This document shows, piece after piece, positions 10,548 to 19,325 of a stretch of 64,000 nt of DNA (within the stretch, counting starts at the first letter, position 1; each line of letters opens with the position of its first letter). The notes beneath the pieces were generated by a model. That model was not told where the DNA came from and did no database searches. It saw only the letters and a list, made by a program, of their open reading frames with translations. Source of the stretch: Siphonodentalium dalli (lineage: Eukaryota; Mollusca; Scaphopoda; Gadilida; Siphonodentaliidae); assembly GCA_032622095.1 (NCBI GenBank), contig CP136064.1:263541863-263605862 (forward strand), read 5' to 3'. The translations under genes were made by a program, and so were the position numbers.

Positions 10548-10553
10548 GATCGT
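10548..10553. repeat. 6-bp target site duplication, left (GATCGT)
   Basis: GATCGT here and at 18304-18309 immediately bracket the long inverted-repeat element. Six-base duplications are the reported hallmark of Polinton/Maverick integration. Confidence 0.85.
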
Positions 10554-10679
10554 AGAAGATAGTGCGTCTCCTTGACCCCAATCGTAAAATTGGGCGTAAG
10601 TGTATTTTGAGTATGTTAGTACTATAGTACTCTATATTTGAGAATTGTTGATAAAAAATGGGCGTAAGTATATTTTCGA

Positions 10680-11165
10680 TATGGGCGTCATATTTGAGCG
10701 TCCTGTTGGTGTGTGTATATTGTTGACTAACAAGTTGGTTCATCGTGTATAAGTGTGAAGTTGTTTTTTTTGTGAACTTTGTAATTTCGGCCGACTATTG
10801 CGTGTCTGACACATCAACTAAATAATCTCAGCTTAAGATGGCTTAACCAAATTATTCATAGAGCAGGTCGTCATATTTGAGCATCATGTGGGTGTGTGTA
10901 TATTTTTGACTAACAAGTCATCGTGTGAAGTTGCTTTGTAATCTCGGCCGACTATTAAATGTCTGACACATCAACGAAACAATCTCAGCTTAAGACAGCT
11001 TAACCAATTTATTTGCGTAAAGATTCAGACAGGCATACATCTTACTGAAAATAATCTCGGCCGACTATTAAATGTCTGACACATCAACCGAATAATCTCA
11101 GCTTAAGACGGTTTAACCGAATTATTTGCGTAAAGATTCAGACACACATACTTCTTACTGTATTT
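10680..11165 (+). repeat. tandem repeats in left TIR
   Basis: Three copies of a unit carrying CGGCCGACTATT, GTCTGACACATCAAC and AATCTCAGCTTAAGA start at about 10788, 10943 and 11055. Two copies of a GTCATATTTGAGC...GGTGTGTGTATATT unit start at about 10685 and 10869. The array is mirrored in the right TIR (about 17690-18180). Subterminal tandem repeats are common in transposon ends and may bind a transposase or act in replication; that role is inferred. Confidence 0.75.
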
Positions 11166-11297
11166 TGAGCAACAGTTGAATATTCCTACCTACTGGATAG
11201 TTCGTATTCATCCGAAGAAATGTCTGATTCTGTCAACTGGGATTAAAACAATGAACACTTTAAATATTGTATATCCTACCATATGTGAACTTGAATT

Positions 11298-11561
11298 ATG
11301 TCATCACCAATAAATACATGTAAAATCGATTATCTTTTCAATAATAATAATATCTCTGGGTTCTATCGTGGTAAAAATCTTTTGTTTGACAATAGATTTT
11401 CCACTCAATGTTTGTCACAGACCTACGTCATAATACTCCCCTCCCCTCCCCCTACCCCAACCACCTTCACATCTCAACTCACTTACCCACACCTATTCAT
11501 GCGCGTATATATTGTACAATGTGTACGTGTCGGAGCACAAGACATTCCAAATATGGAGTAG
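11298..11561 (+). CDS. 87-codon ORF inside left TIR, unknown
   Basis: An ATG-started frame of 87 codons lies in the left TIR, with an 88-codon copy in the right TIR (17291-17557, minus). The two copies differ by whole-codon changes; the right copy has one extra proline in a Pro-rich run near residue 51, so the indel keeps the frame. No domain, signal peptide or membrane segment was recognised. The shared frame is expected from the TIR duplication itself. Only the frame-preserving indel hints at coding, so it may well be non-coding. Confidence 0.2.
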   Translation: MSSPINTCKIDYLFNNNNISGFYRGKNLLFDNRFSTQCLSQTYVIILPSPPPTPTTFTSQLTYPHLFMRVYIVQCVRVGAQDIPNME

Positions 11562-12552
11562 AGTTTAGTATTAGCTCATAGTAAAGCAACGCTCTTTATT
11601 CATCTTTCAGCATAAATGGCATCCGTGCATTATCGTGAATTATTGGAAGAGCGTACGTTTATGGAGTTATTGTTCTTAGAATGAGAATCGTTAGTCCTGT
11701 AACGGCACTGAATCTGGCGAGGTTTGCTGAATGCTATGCACCCGTGTCAGCTAAATCCACATTAAGCATTTAATTTTGAATAAGGTTGATTTGTTTTTCA
11801 AATTTAATAGTGTTGCCTCAGGCTGATCGAAGAAGAAAAATAAATTCGTTTTATTAATTTGTCAATTCTATTCCAACATGGCGGCCACCACTGGGGGCCC
11901 ATAGGTCTGAATCGCCCGGATGTAAAAACAATTTTGTTCATGTTGACGGAGTATAGAAATTAGTGACGTCACAACTATACTTGCGTCGCTTACGCGTGGA
12001 ATAAAATAGTCACGGGCTATTGAGAAGTATGGCCTGTACGTAAATAATAAAGCGCGTTATCGAATCTATGTTACACCATAACCGCGGGTTATTGTAATTT
12101 AATGAAGATTTTCCACTGAGTTTTGCCACAGAACTACGTGATAATACCCAAATCAAATCAGTTATCCGTAAAGAAAAACCAACCAAGATGACTTGTCCGT
12201 AACTAAATGCAAAAGACCTCAAACGTTGAAAAAGAATTTCGTACCGAATATAAGTAATCTCCCAAACTTCTCAAAACACGGCCATAACATCAAATTAGTT
12301 TCATGGATTGTATGTATGATCACCCGTGCACGTCAGCAGCTTATCGCGTTAATACTTCACCTGTACATATAAACGGCTTATTGAGTTATGCATACACATA
12401 TAGTACGTCACCTGGACATTTTATCAGTTTATCACGTGATCACTAAATGTGGCAATCGGGTGTCCGCAGATGCCTGCAATGTATTATTTATAATAATTGG
12501 ACTCATTGATCTCACGTAAATAATACTCTTAGTTGTTCCAATAAAATAGTTA

Positions 12553-12918
12553 TCAAATTCGATCACCATTGCGCAGCTGCAGATACGCTAATATTGTCCT
12601 AGCATAACCATTAATAAATTGCTTCATATCTTTACTTTTAAGGTCCTTGTCAGCTTGTACTTTTACTTCTGTTGAGCCATTTTCCTTATACGTTTCCACT
12701 TTATCACTCCATTCTTCTTGTGCTTTATCTCTACTCTCATCACACAAACTTTTGAAGTATTCATCTTCATTCATTTTAATTTTCTTATTCTGACTATCAT
12801 CCGTGTCCTCAGTTAATTTTCGTTTTAACTTATTTTCTTGACACCATTTTTTTACGTGTCTCTGAACATCATAATGATCTTCGAACAAAAGCCCGCAGTC
12901 ATTACAAGGGCACGACAT
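12553..12918 (-). CDS. small zinc-finger protein of the Polinton-like element (121 aa)
   Basis: The ATG-started frame opens with a single zinc-finger-like motif, CPCNDCGLLFEDHYDVQRHV then KKWC, giving C-x2-C-x12-H-x4-C (C2HC, residues about 5-26). A Lys/Glu-rich charged middle follows and then a C-terminal ILAYLQLRNGD segment. It has no membrane segment. The stop codon lies within the inner edge of the left TIR, so the gene ends exactly where the unique core ends. It lies downstream of the ATPase gene on the same strand. The finger resembles the N-terminal finger remnant of the ATPase ORF. A nucleic-acid-binding role is inferred; no named family was recognised. Confidence 0.5.
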   Translation of the reverse strand: MSCPCNDCGLLFEDHYDVQRHVKKWCQENKLKRKLTEDTDDSQNKKIKMNEDEYFKSLCDESRDKAQEEWSDKVETYKENGSTEVKVQADKDLKSKDMKQFINGYARTILAYLQLRNGDRI

Positions 12919-12970
12919 GCCTTCTCGAATGTCTATGTTTTGACGGTTCTTCTTATTAATTTAATCGAGC

Positions 12971-14037
12971 TCACCAGGTGCCCTTAGTATAGCCATTATG
13001 TTGACCCTGGGGCACAATATAATTATATGCTATACCTTGACCAGGAAGTTCTCTGTCATCGTATTTCATCTTATTAGGTTGACCCTGAATATTGTTGGTA
13101 TAATATTTCATCCCATTATGTTCATCTGGGTGTTCTCTGTCATCGTATTTCATGCCATTCCATTCACCCATATGTTGGTTTGTGTCCTCTTTTAGTACAT
13201 TCTGTCGCAGACGTAATGTGTCCGGTGTTGCGGCTTTTAAATCCACCAGTAGGTAACCGTACGGTTCACTCGTCGCTTCCGAAAACTCTCGCACCATTCA
13301 GGATACATCTGTCTTGATAATGTTGAAATTAATCCCTTATCGATTGGGTTATTGAACAATACCAAATATTGACAATTTCGTCGTTGCGTTGGATCTTTGT
13401 TGTAGTAGAAATTCGGTTTCAAACTTATCAAAGATAAGTTCAAATGGTGACTTCCTTCGGAATGCAAATCATTAACTCTCTGGTCTTTTGATGAAGTTTG
13501 CATCAAGTCATCGAGTATAACTAGATTTTTATACCGGGGGTTGATAAGAAAATCCAAGTTTGCTGGTATATCTCGTATAAAGTTGACCTGAGGGGTGACG
13601 GTATACTTTATTTCGTCATATAGGGGCTGCCAATATTTATAAAACCATATTATTCTGTCAGGTGCGGGTGATATTTTTGAGGCAGACTTTTGTAGCAAGG
13701 TTTTCACGAAGTACGTCTTCCCACTAGATGTCGGTCCACTTACACATGCCGTGAATGGATGCTTGGAAATAAAATCTTCTTGGACGTTGGCCATTGGATC
13801 ATCAAAGCAGGATGTTATGTCGCTTTGTTGCTGTTTCCCCTGCTGGTGTTGTAGTATCTGGTGTTGCTGTAATGGCTGTTGTTGTGGCTGATGATGCTGC
13901 TGCCTGTTGCTGCTGTTGCTGTTTGTTGCTGCTGCTTGGTGCTGCTGCTGTGGGTGTCGGTTAACAAACTCAGTGTGCTTAGATTGTACATGTCTTATCA
14001 AATCATGGTTCCGCACATACTCACTAGAGCAAATTGA
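12971..14037 (-). pseudogene. packaging-type P-loop ATPase (A32/FtsK-HerA-like), frameshifted
   Basis: Reading from 14037, the frame has a partial C2H2 finger (C...YVRNHDLIRHVQSKH), a Gln/His-rich linker (about residues 22-64 counted from 14016), a Walker A motif GPTSSGKT (about 94-101) and a Walker B LVILDD (about 165-170). A conserved C-terminal ATPase region follows. The layout matches A32-like genome-packaging ATPases of Polintons and related large-DNA-virus lineages. At about 13285-13298 the frame breaks by one frameshift. The C-terminal part resumes in another frame (12971-13297) and ends in three copies of an N-G/K-MKYDDRE-type repeat. No in-frame ATG precedes the finger; TAG at 14038-14040 sits where the first zinc cysteine is expected. 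That means a decayed start, an intron, or a sequence error. Confidence 0.7.
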
Positions 14038-14040
14038 CTA

Positions 14041-14403
14041 AAATGTCTCGGTATATGGTTTTCCTTTATACAAATGTTCCTTATAACCTAAATCTGTCCT
14101 GTCCGTATGTTTGATAACTTTATGTAGATGAAATAGTCCGTGTAGAAGCACTGTGTAGACGGGGAATCAACAGGTCTTGTCGGTAAGAGAGTCAGACGAG
14201 AAGTGAAGTCTCGGCTATTAAAACATAGTAATGCGATAGCGAACATCAAACGAGTCTGGGAACGCATATCTGTCAAAAGATACAATAGCCGTCATTGGTC
14301 AATATATCCACGGTCTCACTTTTCGATCTATAAAATCAATTTCACCGAGAGGTTCCCTCGTCATTGGTAGTGACGTAATTGTGGCGTTTTGCGGTATTTT
14401 ACT
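14041..14403. other. upstream region of the ATPase gene, no gene seen
   Basis: A 65-codon minus-strand frame is present but has no recognisable domain and no ATG-context support. The region may hold an upstream exon or promoter for the ATPase gene; neither could be fixed. Confidence 0.35.
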
Positions 14404-14473
14404 GCGGCGGCGGCGGTAACGGCGGCGGCAACGGCGGCGGCAACGGCGGCGGCGGCAACGGCGGTGTCATGTT
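14403..14473. repeat. GGC/AACGGC trinucleotide-type tract
   Basis: A run of (GGC)n interrupted by AAC makes a strongly GC-rich patch inside an AT-rich element. It lies about 25 bp before the small plus-strand ORF at 14496. Confidence 0.85.
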
Positions 14474-14495
14474 ATTTTGCCCCCCCAAAAAATAG

Positions 14496-14678
14496 ATGTT
14501 GTTGTGGTCGTCATCATCGTCGTTGTTGTTCCTCTTTCTCAAAAGTTACGAACGATTACTAGAATACCAGCATCGAATGAAAACATCACCCATACATAAC
14601 ATGATCATGAAGAAAATGGTCAAACTGACCAAACACGGATATAATAATGAATGGGTTGTAGATTCAGACAACGATTAA
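14496..14678 (+). CDS. possible 60-aa ORF in Polinton-like core
   Basis: The frame starts with ATG and encodes a hydrophobic N-terminus (Ser run then LLFLFL, residues about 5-15) followed by a basic Met/Lys/His-rich segment and an acidic DSDND end. AATAAA-like CAATAAAC follows about 7 bp after the stop. This is divergent from the ATPase gene, with the GGC tract between. No homologous family was recognised. The signal-like N-terminus partly arises from simple TCA/TCG repeats, so coding status is doubtful. Confidence 0.25.
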   Translation: MLLWSSSSSLLFLFLKSYERLLEYQHRMKTSPIHNMIMKKMVKLTKHGYNNEWVVDSDND

Positions 14679-14864
14679 ATTTCAATAAACTTCATCAACA
14701 TGATATTCTCGTTTTCGTTATATATCTATAAGCGGGGAGAGAGTGAGTGAATTATTGGGAATTGTAGAGTGAGAAACGATACGTAATGATAAAAGGCGCA
14801 TTAAGAGCCCGAAAATTTGAACTTTAAATATTGTTCTGTGTCATTTTAACTTTCAACCACTGCG

Positions 14865-15180
14865 CTTGTATTGTTAACATTCATTCATAATGAGTGTCTT
14901 GTGTCCCTTTAGAGTGCCTTGTGTTCCTTTAATATTCAAACACCAGTGCGTTTATTGTGTTTCTTTAACATTCATTCAGAATGAGTGCCTTGTGTTCATT
15001 TAGAGTGCATTGTGTTCCTTTAATATTCAAACACCAGTGCGTTTATTGTGTTTCTTTAACATTCATTCATAATGAGTGCCTTGTGTTCCTTTAGAGTGCA
15101 TTGTGTTCCTTTAATATTCACACACCAATATTGCATCACGTCCCTTGTCTCGTGTTTCTTTAACATTCAACACCTTGCGT
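14865..15180. repeat. tandem repeat, ~90-bp unit
   Basis: Three to four units share TAATGAGTGCCTTGTGTTCCTTTA, AATATTCAAACACCAGTGCG and TTTATTGTGTTTCTTTAACATT segments, beginning near 14888, 14980 and 15070. It is in the unique core of the Polinton-like element and non-coding. Confidence 0.8.
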
Positions 15181-15602
15181 TTATTGCCCCCTTTAATGAT
15201 GTCATAGCGTGTGTACATACAAGACAGTATAACACTATGATTATGTCTGTATCTGTTGTTGGGAAGATGTGAAATATAAATTTCAAGGTTGAGTTCAGTG
15301 TGTAGTAATTTCGTATACGTTAAACGCTCTTCATTCATGTGTTACAAACGGGAAGTTGTACTATTTTTGAAAGCAATCACGATACCTCCGTGTAAAATTT
15401 TCATTAAATTACAATAACCCAATGCTGTGGTGTAACAGGCTTGTAGTCAACTAACCCAGAGTGACTTAATTCACAATGAAGTAGACTGCTGCAGATGCGA
15501 TATGTATTGTTTATCCAGAGCTTAAGTGTGTAAACATCACATTTTGCTCGTCACGCTATGACCATATATATACATGTACACATAATACAATCATACCTCA
15601 GC
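15181..15602. other. core of Polinton-like element, no gene seen
   Basis: No convincing frame. A CATTAAATTACAATAACCC...GGTGTAACA stretch near 15402-15435 resembles sequence in the TIR near 16748-16785, so part of this region is a diverged internal copy of TIR sequence. Confidence 0.4.
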
Positions 15603-16105
15603 TTAAAGGCACGTGCGGCCTTAATTGTCGAAAATATTCATATTTGTTCCAAACACAGTAAACAGAAAAACATTAAAACGCATACAGTTCCGTTCATATA
15701 TACCATGACCATCGCGTATATCAGCATGTTATCATAAAGACCTACTATATTTTACCTAAGCAAGAGCCTGGTTGTGTTACAGAAGACAGCACAATGCTAC
15801 TGGCTAATCACACACAAATGACATAAACGCTCTTTATTATTTCCATATCAGGTATTCACCAACAAAGAACGCTCTTTATGTTTATCATCATAATATAAAC
15901 AAACACCAGAAAAGTTACTTTTTATGCTTTTGTTTACATAACAATGGTCAAACATATGACCATAACATACTGTTTATGCGATATTTCTTATTTGTATACG
16001 GACAAAGTCTATCTACATTTTGATGTTCTTTCTGTTTTTGGCGGTTTTTGACGGGTGGAGATATTTTCACAGCATACCCACCACCAAGGCCAACCGTGTC
16101 TTTAA
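15603..16105. mobile_element. TTAA-flanked MITE nested in Polinton-like element
   Basis: TTAA bounds both ends (15603-15606 and 16102-16105), with terminal repeats AGGCACGTGCGGCC and (inverted) AGACACGGTTGGCC. A second copy, with similar interior and same orientation, lies in an RGS intron at 57757-58292. The interior repeats an AACGCTCTTTAT motif. No transposase is encoded. The TTAA target suggests a piggyBac-type mobiliser. Confidence 0.65.
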
Positions 16106-16285
16106 GTATGTAAACATCGGATTTGCTCATCAGACGATAAGCTGACAATATTTACGCATGGTCAAATTAGATTCATGCATAAAGGTAAGGTAATTTTTGT
16201 TATGGTCATGTTTTTTGTTAAGACCATGTTCTAACATAGATCGATAAATAAGTTAAAGGTCGTTATATTCCACAGTCAAATCTAT

Positions 16286-18303
16286 TGGTGATCGAATTTG
16301 ATAACTATTTTATTGGAACAACTAAGAGTATTATTTACGTGAGATCAATGAGTCCAATTATTATAAATAATACATTGCAGGCATCTGCGGACACCCGATT
16401 GCCACATTTAGTGATCACGTGATAAACAGATAAAATGTCCAGGTGACCTACTATATGTATGCATAACTCAATAAGCCGTTTATATGTACAGGTGAAGTAT
16501 TAACGCGATAAGCTGCTGACGTGCACGGGTGATCATACATACAACCCGTGAAACTAATTTGATGTTATGGCCGTGTTTTGAGAAGTTTGGGAGATTACTT
16601 ATATTCGGTACGAAATTCTTTTTCAACGTTTGAGGTCTTTTGCATTTAGTTACGGACAAGTCATCTTGGTTGGTTTTTCTTTACGGATAACTGATTTTAT
16701 TTGGGTATTATCACGTAGTTCTGTGGTAAAACTCAGTGGAAAATCTTCATTAAATTACAATAACCCGCGGTTATGGTGTAACATAGATTCGATAACGCGC
16801 TTTATTATTTACGTACAGGCCATACTTCTCAATAGCCCGTGACTATTTTATTCCACGCGTAAGCGACGCAAGTATAGTTGTGACGTCACTAATTTCTATA
16901 CTCCGTCAACATGAACAAAATTGTTTTTACATCCGGGCGATTCAGACCTATGGGCCCCCAGTGGTGGCCGCCATGTTGGAATAGAATTGACATTTTAATA
17001 AAACGAATTTAATTTTCTTCTTCGATCAGCCTGAGGCGACACTATTAAATTTGAAAAACAAATCAACCTTATTCAAAATTAAATGCTTAATGTGGATTTA
17101 GCTGACACGGGTGCATAGCATTCGGCAAACCTCGCCAGATTCAGTGTCGTTACAGGACTAACGATTCTCATTCTAAGAACAATAACTCCATAAACGTATG
17201 CTCTTCCAATAATTCGCGATAATGCACGGATGCCATTTATGCTGAAAGATGAATAAAGAGCGTTGCTTTACTATGAGCTAATACTAAACTCTACTCCATA
17301 TTTGGGATGTCTTGTGCTCCGACACGTACACATTGTACAATATATACGCGCATGAATAGGTGTGGGTAAGTGAGTTGAGATGTGAAGGTGGTTGGGGTAG
17401 GGGGAGGAGGAGAGGGGAGTATTATGACGTAGGTCTGTGACAAACATTGAGTGGAAAATCTATTGTCAAACAAAAGATTTTTACCACGATAGAACCCAGA
17501 GATATTATTATTATTGAAAAGATAATCGATTTTACATGTATTTATTGGTGATGACATAATTCAAGTTCACATATGGTAGGATATACAATATTTAAAGTGT
17601 TCATTTTTTCAATCCCAGTTGACAGAATCAGACATTTCTTCGGATGAATACGAACTATCCAGTAGGTAGGAATATTCATCTGTTGCTCAAAATACAGTAA
17701 GATGTATGTGTGTCTGAATCTTTACGCAAATAATTCGGTTAAACCGTCTTAAGCTGAGATTATTCGGTTGATGTGTCAGACATTTAATAGTCGACAGAGA
17801 TTATTTTCAGTAAGATGTATGCCTGTCTGAATCTTTACGCAAATAATTTGGTTAAGCCGCCTTAAGCTGAGATTATTTAGTTGATGTGTCAGACATTTAA
17901 TAGTCGGCCGAGATTACAAAGCAACTTCACACGATGACTTGGTAGTCAAAAATATACACACACCCACATGATGCTCAAATATGACGACCTGCTCTATGAA
18001 TAATTTGGTTAAGCCATCTTAAGCTGAGATTATTTAGTTGATGTGTCAGACACGCAATAGTCGGCCGAAATTACAAAGTTCACAAAAAAAAAACAACTTC
18101 ACACTTATACGCGATGAACCAACTTTTTAGTCAACAATATACACACACCAACAGGACGCTCAAATATGACGCCCATATCGAAAATATACTTACGCCCATT
18201 TTTTATCAACAATTCTCAAATATATAGTACTATAGTACTAACATACTCAAAATACACTTACGCCCAATTTTACGATTGGGGTCAAGGAGACGCACTATCT
18301 TCT
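16286..18303 (-). repeat. right terminal inverted repeat of Polinton-like element
   Basis: Reverse complement of 10554-12568. It ends CGCACTATCTTCT directly before the GATCGT duplication at 18304. Differences from the left copy are few, implying recent duplication, gene conversion or replication-coupled homogenisation. Confidence 0.88.
17291..17557 (-). CDS. 88-codon ORF inside right TIR, unknown
   Basis: The TIR partner of the 11298-11561 frame, with one extra codon in the Pro-rich run. Unrecognised product. Coding status is as uncertain as for the left copy. Confidence 0.2.
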   Translation of the reverse strand: MSSPINTCKIDYLFNNNNISGFYRGKNLLFDNRFSTQCLSQTYVIILPSPPPPTPTTFTSQLTYPHLFMRVYIVQCVRVGAQDIPNME

Positions 18304-18309
18304 GATCGT
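18304..18309. repeat. 6-bp target site duplication, right (GATCGT)
   Basis: Matches 10548-10553 exactly and abuts the terminal AGAAGATAG (read on minus) of the element. Confidence 0.85.
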
Positions 18310-19325
18310 CTGCACTAAGAATATACTTATTTATGTATTCATCCTTCAATCTTTCTGTGGCGTTATTAATATAGTTATCCGAAATGTGCAAACTATTTCC
18401 ATTTGCCATGTTCAATGATGCTACAAACTTCTCTTTCATTGTTCTAAGTGAGGGTTTGATTGTATTTGATTTGCTTGATCTATGTGCTTCGCGCAAGATT
18501 TGGTTCGGGTGTTCATTAATTCGCTTCAAAAATTTAAACGCCTGTGTTATGCAATCGACATAAATAGGATATACGCCGAGTTCTACATTTTGCAGAAGCT
18601 CAAGTGTATCTTCTCAGATTGCGAGCTATCATTACGCGATACCTCTGGTGTTTCGCTTCCATAAAGCAACATTGGTTTTACTAGTGTATTAAAAAGTTTT
18701 AGTGCCAGTGGTATAGATATGTGGTAGCGATTTATCATTTCACGTCGCAATTTGTGCATTACTTTAAGTGCTTTTGTACTCATTGACTCTTGGGCGAGTT
18801 TATATTTTTCACTCTTCGTAAAAATTAGTCCAAGGTATGAGAACTGATCGCAAATTTTCAACTCATTACCCAAAACTTTGAATATTGGAACTGCAGTAGA
18901 GTTTTGATTAACCACCATTACTTCAGTTTTGTTGATGTTAATGGATAATACGTTGTCTTGAGAGTAGATGACAACTTTATCAAGTGATCTTTGTAAGCCA
19001 GTTTGGCTTTCCGAAACTAGAAGTAGGTCATCGGCAAAAAGTAAGTGTTTTTTTTTTAGATTGTTGTAGAGTGCACGAACCGCAAGATTCATCAAAACAT
19101 AATTTTTTGTCATCAATAAATATCTTCAACAGGGTAGGGGAAAGCGAACACCCTTGCCTCACCCCTATAGTTGAGGCAAAGGGCTGCGATAGTCCTTGTG
19201 ATGTTTTGATAATATAGTCGCTTGAACTGTATATTGAGCGCAAAATGTCTAGAATATTTCCCCCTATTTGAATATTCATCATTTTCTCGAATAGCAACTC
19301 CCTGTTTATTGAATCAAATGCTTAA
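18304..19325 (-). pseudogene. LINE reverse transcriptase fragment, 5' truncated and frameshifted
   Basis: Minus-strand frames show ordered non-LTR RT motifs: AFDSINRELL near 19320-19290, GVRQGCSLSPTLLKIF near 19170-19125, LLFADDLLLVSES near 19040-19005, then FSYLGLIFTKSEKYK and LALKLFNTLVKPMLLYGSE. The FADD box carries the catalytic aspartates. At least two frame breaks occur, one near 19050-19120 and one near 18590. The 5' end stops near 19325, so endonuclease and N-terminal RT are missing. The 3' half is separated by the Polinton-like insertion and continues at 10547. The clade is not assignable by eye. Confidence 0.8.

Follow-up and report, generated by a model that had tools for sequence, protein, structure and literature searches.

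A Polinton-ended element with a packaging ATPase in the genome of Siphonodentalium dalli, a probable Polinton-dependent satellite

Non-autonomous members of the Polinton (Maverick) family of DNA elements are known, and several further systems offer parallels to the one described here: a 7,750-bp element (positions 10554-18303) in a 64,000-nucleotide stretch of contig CP136064.1 of Siphonodentalium dalli (the window), together with its relatives in the same genome (the small elements). Defective genomes of protein-primed linear DNA viruses such as adenovirus are short, keep their ends and acquire long inverted duplications by panhandle copying; the small elements differ in being integrated in many copies and in keeping one foreign gene. 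Phage satellites such as phage-inducible chromosomal islands (PICI) and P4 rely on the structural genes of a helper and encode functions by which helper particles are redirected. These satellites are bacterial and have unrelated genes, and redirection by the small elements is a proposal. Virophages and Polinton-like viruses are also small DNA elements that have an A32-like ATPase and live at the expense of another virus, but they encode capsid proteins and their helper is a giant virus, whereas for the small elements a Polinton of an animal genome would be the helper. Foldback and Galileo elements also have long, internally repetitive inverted repeats; Galileo differs in its P-element-type transposase (PMC3573991) and its lack of Polinton ends. 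Vertebrate Mavericks are 12.7-24.6 kb long, with repeats of 46-1,447 bp, (AG)3 or (AGT)2 ends and 6-bp duplications (available part of PMC8097293). From the same part of that source, Polintons share with the small elements AG-type ends, 6-bp duplications, inverted terminal repeats and an ATPase, which is among their core genes; measured against the vertebrate values, the small elements read end to end differ in size (7.8-10.8 kb) and in their arms of 2-4 kb. They also differ in having no polymerase, integrase or capsid match and an ATPase of another clade than that of the resident Polinton. In the literature searched, by titles and abstract starts, no Polinton satellite or ATPase-only Polinton derivative is described, which does not establish absence from print.

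The window element is very probably a dead copy of a Polinton-dependent satellite that was mobilised in trans. It is not itself a Polinton, since the polymerase, integrase and capsid-like frames of the resident Polinton have no tblastn match in it. Its ends are common to it and a co-resident candidate helper whose enzymes it does not match, and these ends would act in cis. The genome searches covered 2.23 Gb on nine contigs (loci are labelled Cn:position, for contig n), and the similarity searches scored the best candidates only. Polinton-type AG termini and inverted repeats are common to the small elements and the PolB-bearing elements of this genome. Alignments of the first 100 bp resolve two end lineages, and both include PolB-bearing as well as small members. 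The old end lineage (...CAATCGTAAAATTGGGC) contains the Polinton C9:147.5M, two PolB-bearing elements on C3 and small elements including that of the window. The young end lineage (...TCACATCTAAAAATAGA) contains the Polintons C5:75M and C1:95M and the small elements C4:220M, C1:276M, C8:47M and C3:170M, and the terminus of C7:29M is a close variant of it. Full Polintons with the same termini, which the initial annotation had proposed to look for, are thus present in the same genome for both end lineages; and while it had held that copies without common termini would speak against its view, the copies share both their ends and the 6-bp duplications.

The likeness to Polintons extends far past the ends. 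The outer arm of a small element on C2 is 94-97% identical to those of the two PolB-bearing C3 elements over up to 1,973 columns (94% over 1,973). Compared with the Polinton C5:75M, identity is 91% over 330 columns (all that were fetched) for C1:276M, 88% over 586 for C8:47M, 87% over 673 for C3:170M and 83% over 108 for C4:220M. The same ATPase gene (94-100% identical to the C2 copy) is found in small elements of both end lineages; therefore, the ends follow Polintons and the gene stays. The argument from arm versus core is drawn from one element, that on C2, in which the outer arm is like the C3 Polintons and the core like other small elements (its gene region is 92% identical to that of the window, and other small elements 87-92%). 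The window arm could be read as recombined from two types of Polinton arm (split p ~1e-16, maximised over split points), but we do not rely on this, because an outer block much like it recurs in the other small elements and the Polinton C9:147.5M may be the odd one. These comparisons also bear on a small autonomous lineage whose AG ends and 6-bp duplications would have arisen by convergence alone. Its large copy number, its distinct gene and the variability of the terminal 26 bp among copies are compatible with such a lineage; however, the arm likeness just described, and a young element that was read with no match to the resident integrase and no frame longer than 141 amino acids besides the ATPase (short frames were not Pfam-scanned), make it very unlikely. 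Between the two options in the initial annotation, a trans-mobilised satellite or a lineage of its own, the Polinton ends speak for the former, and the latter holds for the gene only.

A census of ends gives the scale of the family. The terminal 26-mer TCACATCTAAAAATAGAATCTTTGGG has 539 + 529 = 1,068 exact matches in the genome, and its backwards control has 0. The first 100 of the 1,068 matches represent 89 distinct ends and form 40 facing pairs closer than 30 kb, with sizes of 4.7-7 kb (3 pairs), 7-12 kb (25), 12-15 kb (3), 15-17.5 kb (8) and 26 kb (1). Five pairs overlap scored genes, namely PolB at 15.6 and 16.0 kb and the small-type ATPase at 8.4, 9.0 and 13.2 kb. In this sample of 100 of 1,068, pairs of the small size class are thus about three times as frequent as those of Polinton size, with the content of most pairs deduced from size. 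A 601-base terminal query gave 44 matches (40 of 489 candidates scored). Separately, C1:159746542-159783957 carries, among the matches listed, six same-strand young-type ends spaced 5.3-5.4 kb apart and one opposite end, an arrangement that resembles a head-to-tail array of an element with Polinton ends.

The candidate helpers are themselves well represented. The Polinton C9:147,536,103-147,554,322 is 18.2 kb long and flanked by the duplication GACAGG; its frames match an integrase core with chromodomain and DNA_pol_B_2 (1e-32). Its ATPase frame has weak P-loop matches below the cut-off and aligns to the small-element ATPase, and the frames in capsid position, which are candidates for capsid genes, have no Pfam match. 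C1:95,377,025-95,392,671 (15.6 kb) has the duplication TTTGTG and arms that are 99.8% identical over at least 1,171 bp, so that the 6-bp duplication is exact in both Polintons checked. The best 59 of 2,427 candidates for PolB were scored, and most have open frames of about 950 amino acids; therefore, Polintons are numerous and many look young. At C5:75033209-75057479, a 24-kb pair of young ends encloses a second copy of the C-terminal part of PolB, which may point to a Polinton that was duplicated in part.

The features of the window element are as follows.

10548-10553, no strand: left target-site duplication, GATCGT (flank reading and empty site)
10554-12568, plus strand: left inverted repeat arm (self-comparison; copies elsewhere in the genome)
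10554-10604, plus strand: terminus AGAAGATAGTGCG...CAATCGTAAAATTGGGC (end lineage common to PolB-bearing Polintons of the genome)
10782-11160, plus strand: three repeats of ~109 nucleotides within the arm (mirrored at 17695-18073)
11205-11246, plus strand: remnant of the arm-encoded acidic frame, with last codons YSSEEMSDSVNWD and a stop (in the window copy by eye only)
12553-12918, minus strand: C-terminal part of the ATPase polypeptide with the second zinc finger, truncated at the left-arm junction
12971-13297, minus strand: ATPase continuation in another frame, the frame being broken here (open reading frames, tblastn)
13237-14016, minus strand: A32/FtsK-HerA-type packaging ATPase domain (Pfam match; fold of a homologue)
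14320-16285, no strand: inner-arm sequence, single here and in both arms of relatives (comparison with relatives)
14867-15139, plus strand: three 91-bp tandem copies (self-comparison)
16286-18303, minus strand: right inverted repeat arm (self-comparison)
18304-18309, no strand: right target-site duplication, GATCGT (flank reading and empty site)

The two arms (10554-12568 and 16286-18303) align with each other in inverted orientation over four collinear blocks of 98-99% identity. The element starts with AGAAGATAGTGCG... at both ends, and these AG ends are bordered by an exact 6-bp target-site duplication (GATCGT at 10548-10553 and 18304-18309). The length, the ~2.0-kb near-identical repeats, the ends and the duplication recognised in the initial annotation are therefore all borne out, as is its statement that more than half of the element is terminal repeat (~52% of 7,750 bp). 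A 320-base query of the joined flanks, from which the element and one GATCGT had been removed, was scored at 40 genome places (216 candidates). By row coordinates the join is crossed in all 40, i.e., the repeat is uninterrupted there; 33 of the 40 matches cover at least bases 13-320 of 320 at 82-95% identity, and seven are shorter parts. The insertion is therefore exact, and its target is a dispersed repeat, which has at least 40 relatives in the genome. In the right flank (18230-19297), minus-strand frames resemble a reverse transcriptase of the type without long terminal repeats, judged from the frames alone.

Long inverted repeats may also arise from mis-assembly, and long palindromes are difficult to assemble; the evidence here comes from assembled sequence and not from raw reads. 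Such an artefact is nonetheless extremely improbable given the target repeat that is uninterrupted once the flanks are joined, the arms within single elements that diverge by about 2-7%, as expected of old insertions, and the 6-bp duplications. The latter were sought, as the initial annotation had suggested, at other copies of the terminal repeat, and are exact in nine of the 11 small elements with both ends read. They are all different and lie on five of the nine contigs (seven when two Polintons are included).

Comparison with relatives indicates what the window copy has lost. Five relatives of its end lineage that were read end to end are 9.8-10.8 kb long, and their longer arms include sequence that the window element has only once. 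It is therefore a shortened, worn copy, and its 2-kb arms are a reduced state. The 3.7-kb middle between the arms, taken as a core in the initial annotation, is single-copy here, but a stable core is ruled out, as its right half is inner-arm sequence repeated in other copies. Many younger members are near-palindromes of 8-9 kb with an intact packaging-ATPase frame of ~566 amino acids in both arms. One of these, C4:220,496,083-220,504,623 (8.5 kb), has arms that are 96.9% identical over 4,302 columns and 566-amino-acid frames that differ at one of 1,701 bases; its gene part seems more homogenised than its outer arm. The old element C9:161.92M also has the ATPase gene in both arms, and therefore the palindromic form is not confined to young copies. 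A protein query with the ATPase scored the best 121 of 4,127 first-look candidates (94-100% identity), and 104 of the 121 have no stop, a biased sample because these are the top-scoring copies. They include 32 pairs no more than 4 kb apart, all 32 divergent, and 57 copies without a scored partner within 4 kb.

Besides the ATPase, the arm-encoded acidic frame is the only Polinton gene with a match in the small elements read. For the polymerase, which the Polinton C9:147.5M has, tblastn gave no match in the window element or in any small copy read, and a retroviral-type integrase was likewise not found in them, in agreement with the earlier statement that the element has no visible enzyme for integration or replication. 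The capsid-candidate frames of the resident Polinton, the sole capsid queries, had no match in the small elements read. The acidic frame is longer in relatives and in the Polinton C9:147.5M than in the window. A related acidic protein is encoded in both arms of a Polinton and of a small element, at 43-44% identity (L015 980-1516, L017 992-1600).

The frame at 14016-13237 matches Pox_A32 (2.9e-6, passing the Pfam cut-off), so that the assignment to A32/FtsK-type ATPases in the initial annotation stands. The separate zinc-finger gene that it had placed in the core does not: the frames 14016-13237, 13297-12971 and 12918-12553 belong to a single gene, which is broken into different frames and truncated at the left arm, and the zinc-finger frame is therefore the C-terminal part of the same polypeptide. 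The ATPase frame has 124 homologues, of which 120 are listed; named ones are few and, among the matches listed, all bivalve (Mytilus coruscus and Argopecten irradians). The fuller homologues consist of a zinc finger, a Q-rich linker, the ATPase, a second zinc finger and an acidic tail, although many are partial. The second finger is present in 25 of the 30 homologues of at least 350 amino acids, and the whole layout is found in the single open 566-amino-acid frame of a young genome relative. A structure model of the homologue P0011 (mean predicted local distance difference test score, 81) has as its best solved structures the packaging ATPase B204 of Sulfolobus turreted icosahedral virus (STIV) and STIV2 (E 3e-5; template modelling score normalised by target, 0.59-0.62), and its top viral models include A32-like ATPases and adenovirus IVa2. 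By this model of a homologue, the small-element protein would have a packaging-ATPase fold, which is suggestive of a packaging role. No relatives were recovered from viral contigs with the single ATPase, the ATPase alignment or PolB as query, the zinc-finger frame as a lone query gave no homologue, and a PHROGs search gave nothing below E 0.04.

By sequence comparison, the ATPase of the small elements is not that of the helper but belongs to another clade. The two are 31% identical (62/198), and the Polinton ATPase falls outside the small-element clade in a tree, on a long branch and with unsettled bootstrap. In 2.5-kb stretches at 12 sampled PolB loci, the own-type ATPase was present in 11, one stretch fell short of the gene, and the small type was present in none; adding C9:147.5M and C5:75M, the own type is seen in 13 of 14 Polintons and, within the stretches read, the small type in none of them. 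The Polinton cluster at C3:294.66-294.69M is too rearranged for its ATPase type to be read. The 59 PolB places and 121 small-type ATPase places form no pair within 30 kb (0.19 expected by chance), which means no more than that the two scored sets do not lie side by side. The homologue P0074 ends in a chromodomain (PF00385), like Polinton integrases, which hints that the ATPase lineage may have come from another Polinton.

These patterns suggest how a satellite of this kind may be maintained. Its terminal repeats would be where the helper polymerase starts to copy it, insertion by the helper integrase would leave the 6-bp duplication, and helper particles may take it up. Long arms and young copies that are nearly palindromic would result if synthesis on a displaced single strand switched templates from one end to the other (a panhandle). 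Almost identical extra sequence stands at both ends of the C7 element, C8:47M has the same doubled end at both sides, and ends are doubled on both sides in five of the six doubled elements among the 26-mer matches listed. The doubled ends and the 32 of 32 divergent gene pairs fit as marks of panhandle copying, and the long arms and palindromes fit the same process. The ATPase, presumably brought from another Polinton lineage and kept in many copies, would favour the packaging of satellite over helper DNA. Such a diversion of helper-particle packaging is plausible because of the modelled ATPase fold and because this is the only recognised viral gene kept.

The ATPase may instead have no role. 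The small elements would then be passive non-autonomous Polintons, palindromic and similar to defective interfering genomes, which were amplified because they are short and have origins, with the ATPase as a passenger from a different Polinton ancestor. This is a version of the satellite with a role-less gene and is compatible with trans-mobilisation. The ratio of nonsynonymous to synonymous substitution rates (dN/dS) is near neutral in several comparisons, as expected of a passenger. Between the young frame and seven older copies it is 0.50, 0.59, 0.66, 0.68, 0.78, 0.91 and 1.08, where 0.50 refers to the window copy (bootstrap 0.30-0.88, the sole interval of the seven that excludes 1). Among old copies, the ATPase part gives 0.36-1.21 in 28 pairs (19 at 0.61-0.95, two above 1, and seven at 0.36-0.49 that all involve the most diverged copy), and values scatter more in the second-finger part (0.35-1.52); the values of old copies also include neutral decay after insertion. 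In addition, palindromes of ~8-10 kb would need no gene for copying from their ends, the gene of the window copy is broken, and 57 of the 121 scored ATPase copies lack a close scored partner. However, one ATPase lineage is kept across two end lineages in which the other Polinton genes are unmatched except for the acidic frame, and the C4:220M frames are nearly identical while the whole arms have diverged. A passenger gene is a serious contender, to which we give somewhat less than an even chance.

Several points weigh against a trans-mobilised satellite with its own packaging gene. Mobilisation in trans is deduced, and none was observed. A Polinton with the small-type ATPase, most of all one at lower identity, could be missed because only the best candidates were scored and most Polintons were not read. 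The duplication of C9:161.9M matches at five of six bases, and C1:276M has no clean duplication. The evidence for selection on the ATPase is weak, although the ratios are compatible with past purifying selection, and the intact frames in the best-scoring set may reflect just youth.

The satellite reading can be extended, tentatively and with more doubt than confidence, to an animal counterpart of phage satellites: a high-copy near-palindrome living on Polintons, with ends swapped to those of whichever Polinton is active and its own packaging motor, derived from another Polinton lineage, filling helper particles with satellite DNA. Polinton particles have not been observed, according to the available part of PMC8097293. 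If the satellite reading is true, animal Polintons would have parasites of their own, and would therefore replicate, and perhaps form particles, in animal cells. If a gene is kept for packaging in an element without any other recognised viral gene, this would argue indirectly that packaging takes place and that there is a gain in hijacking it. With helper and satellite side by side in one genome, and with many young-looking copies, these ideas are directly testable.

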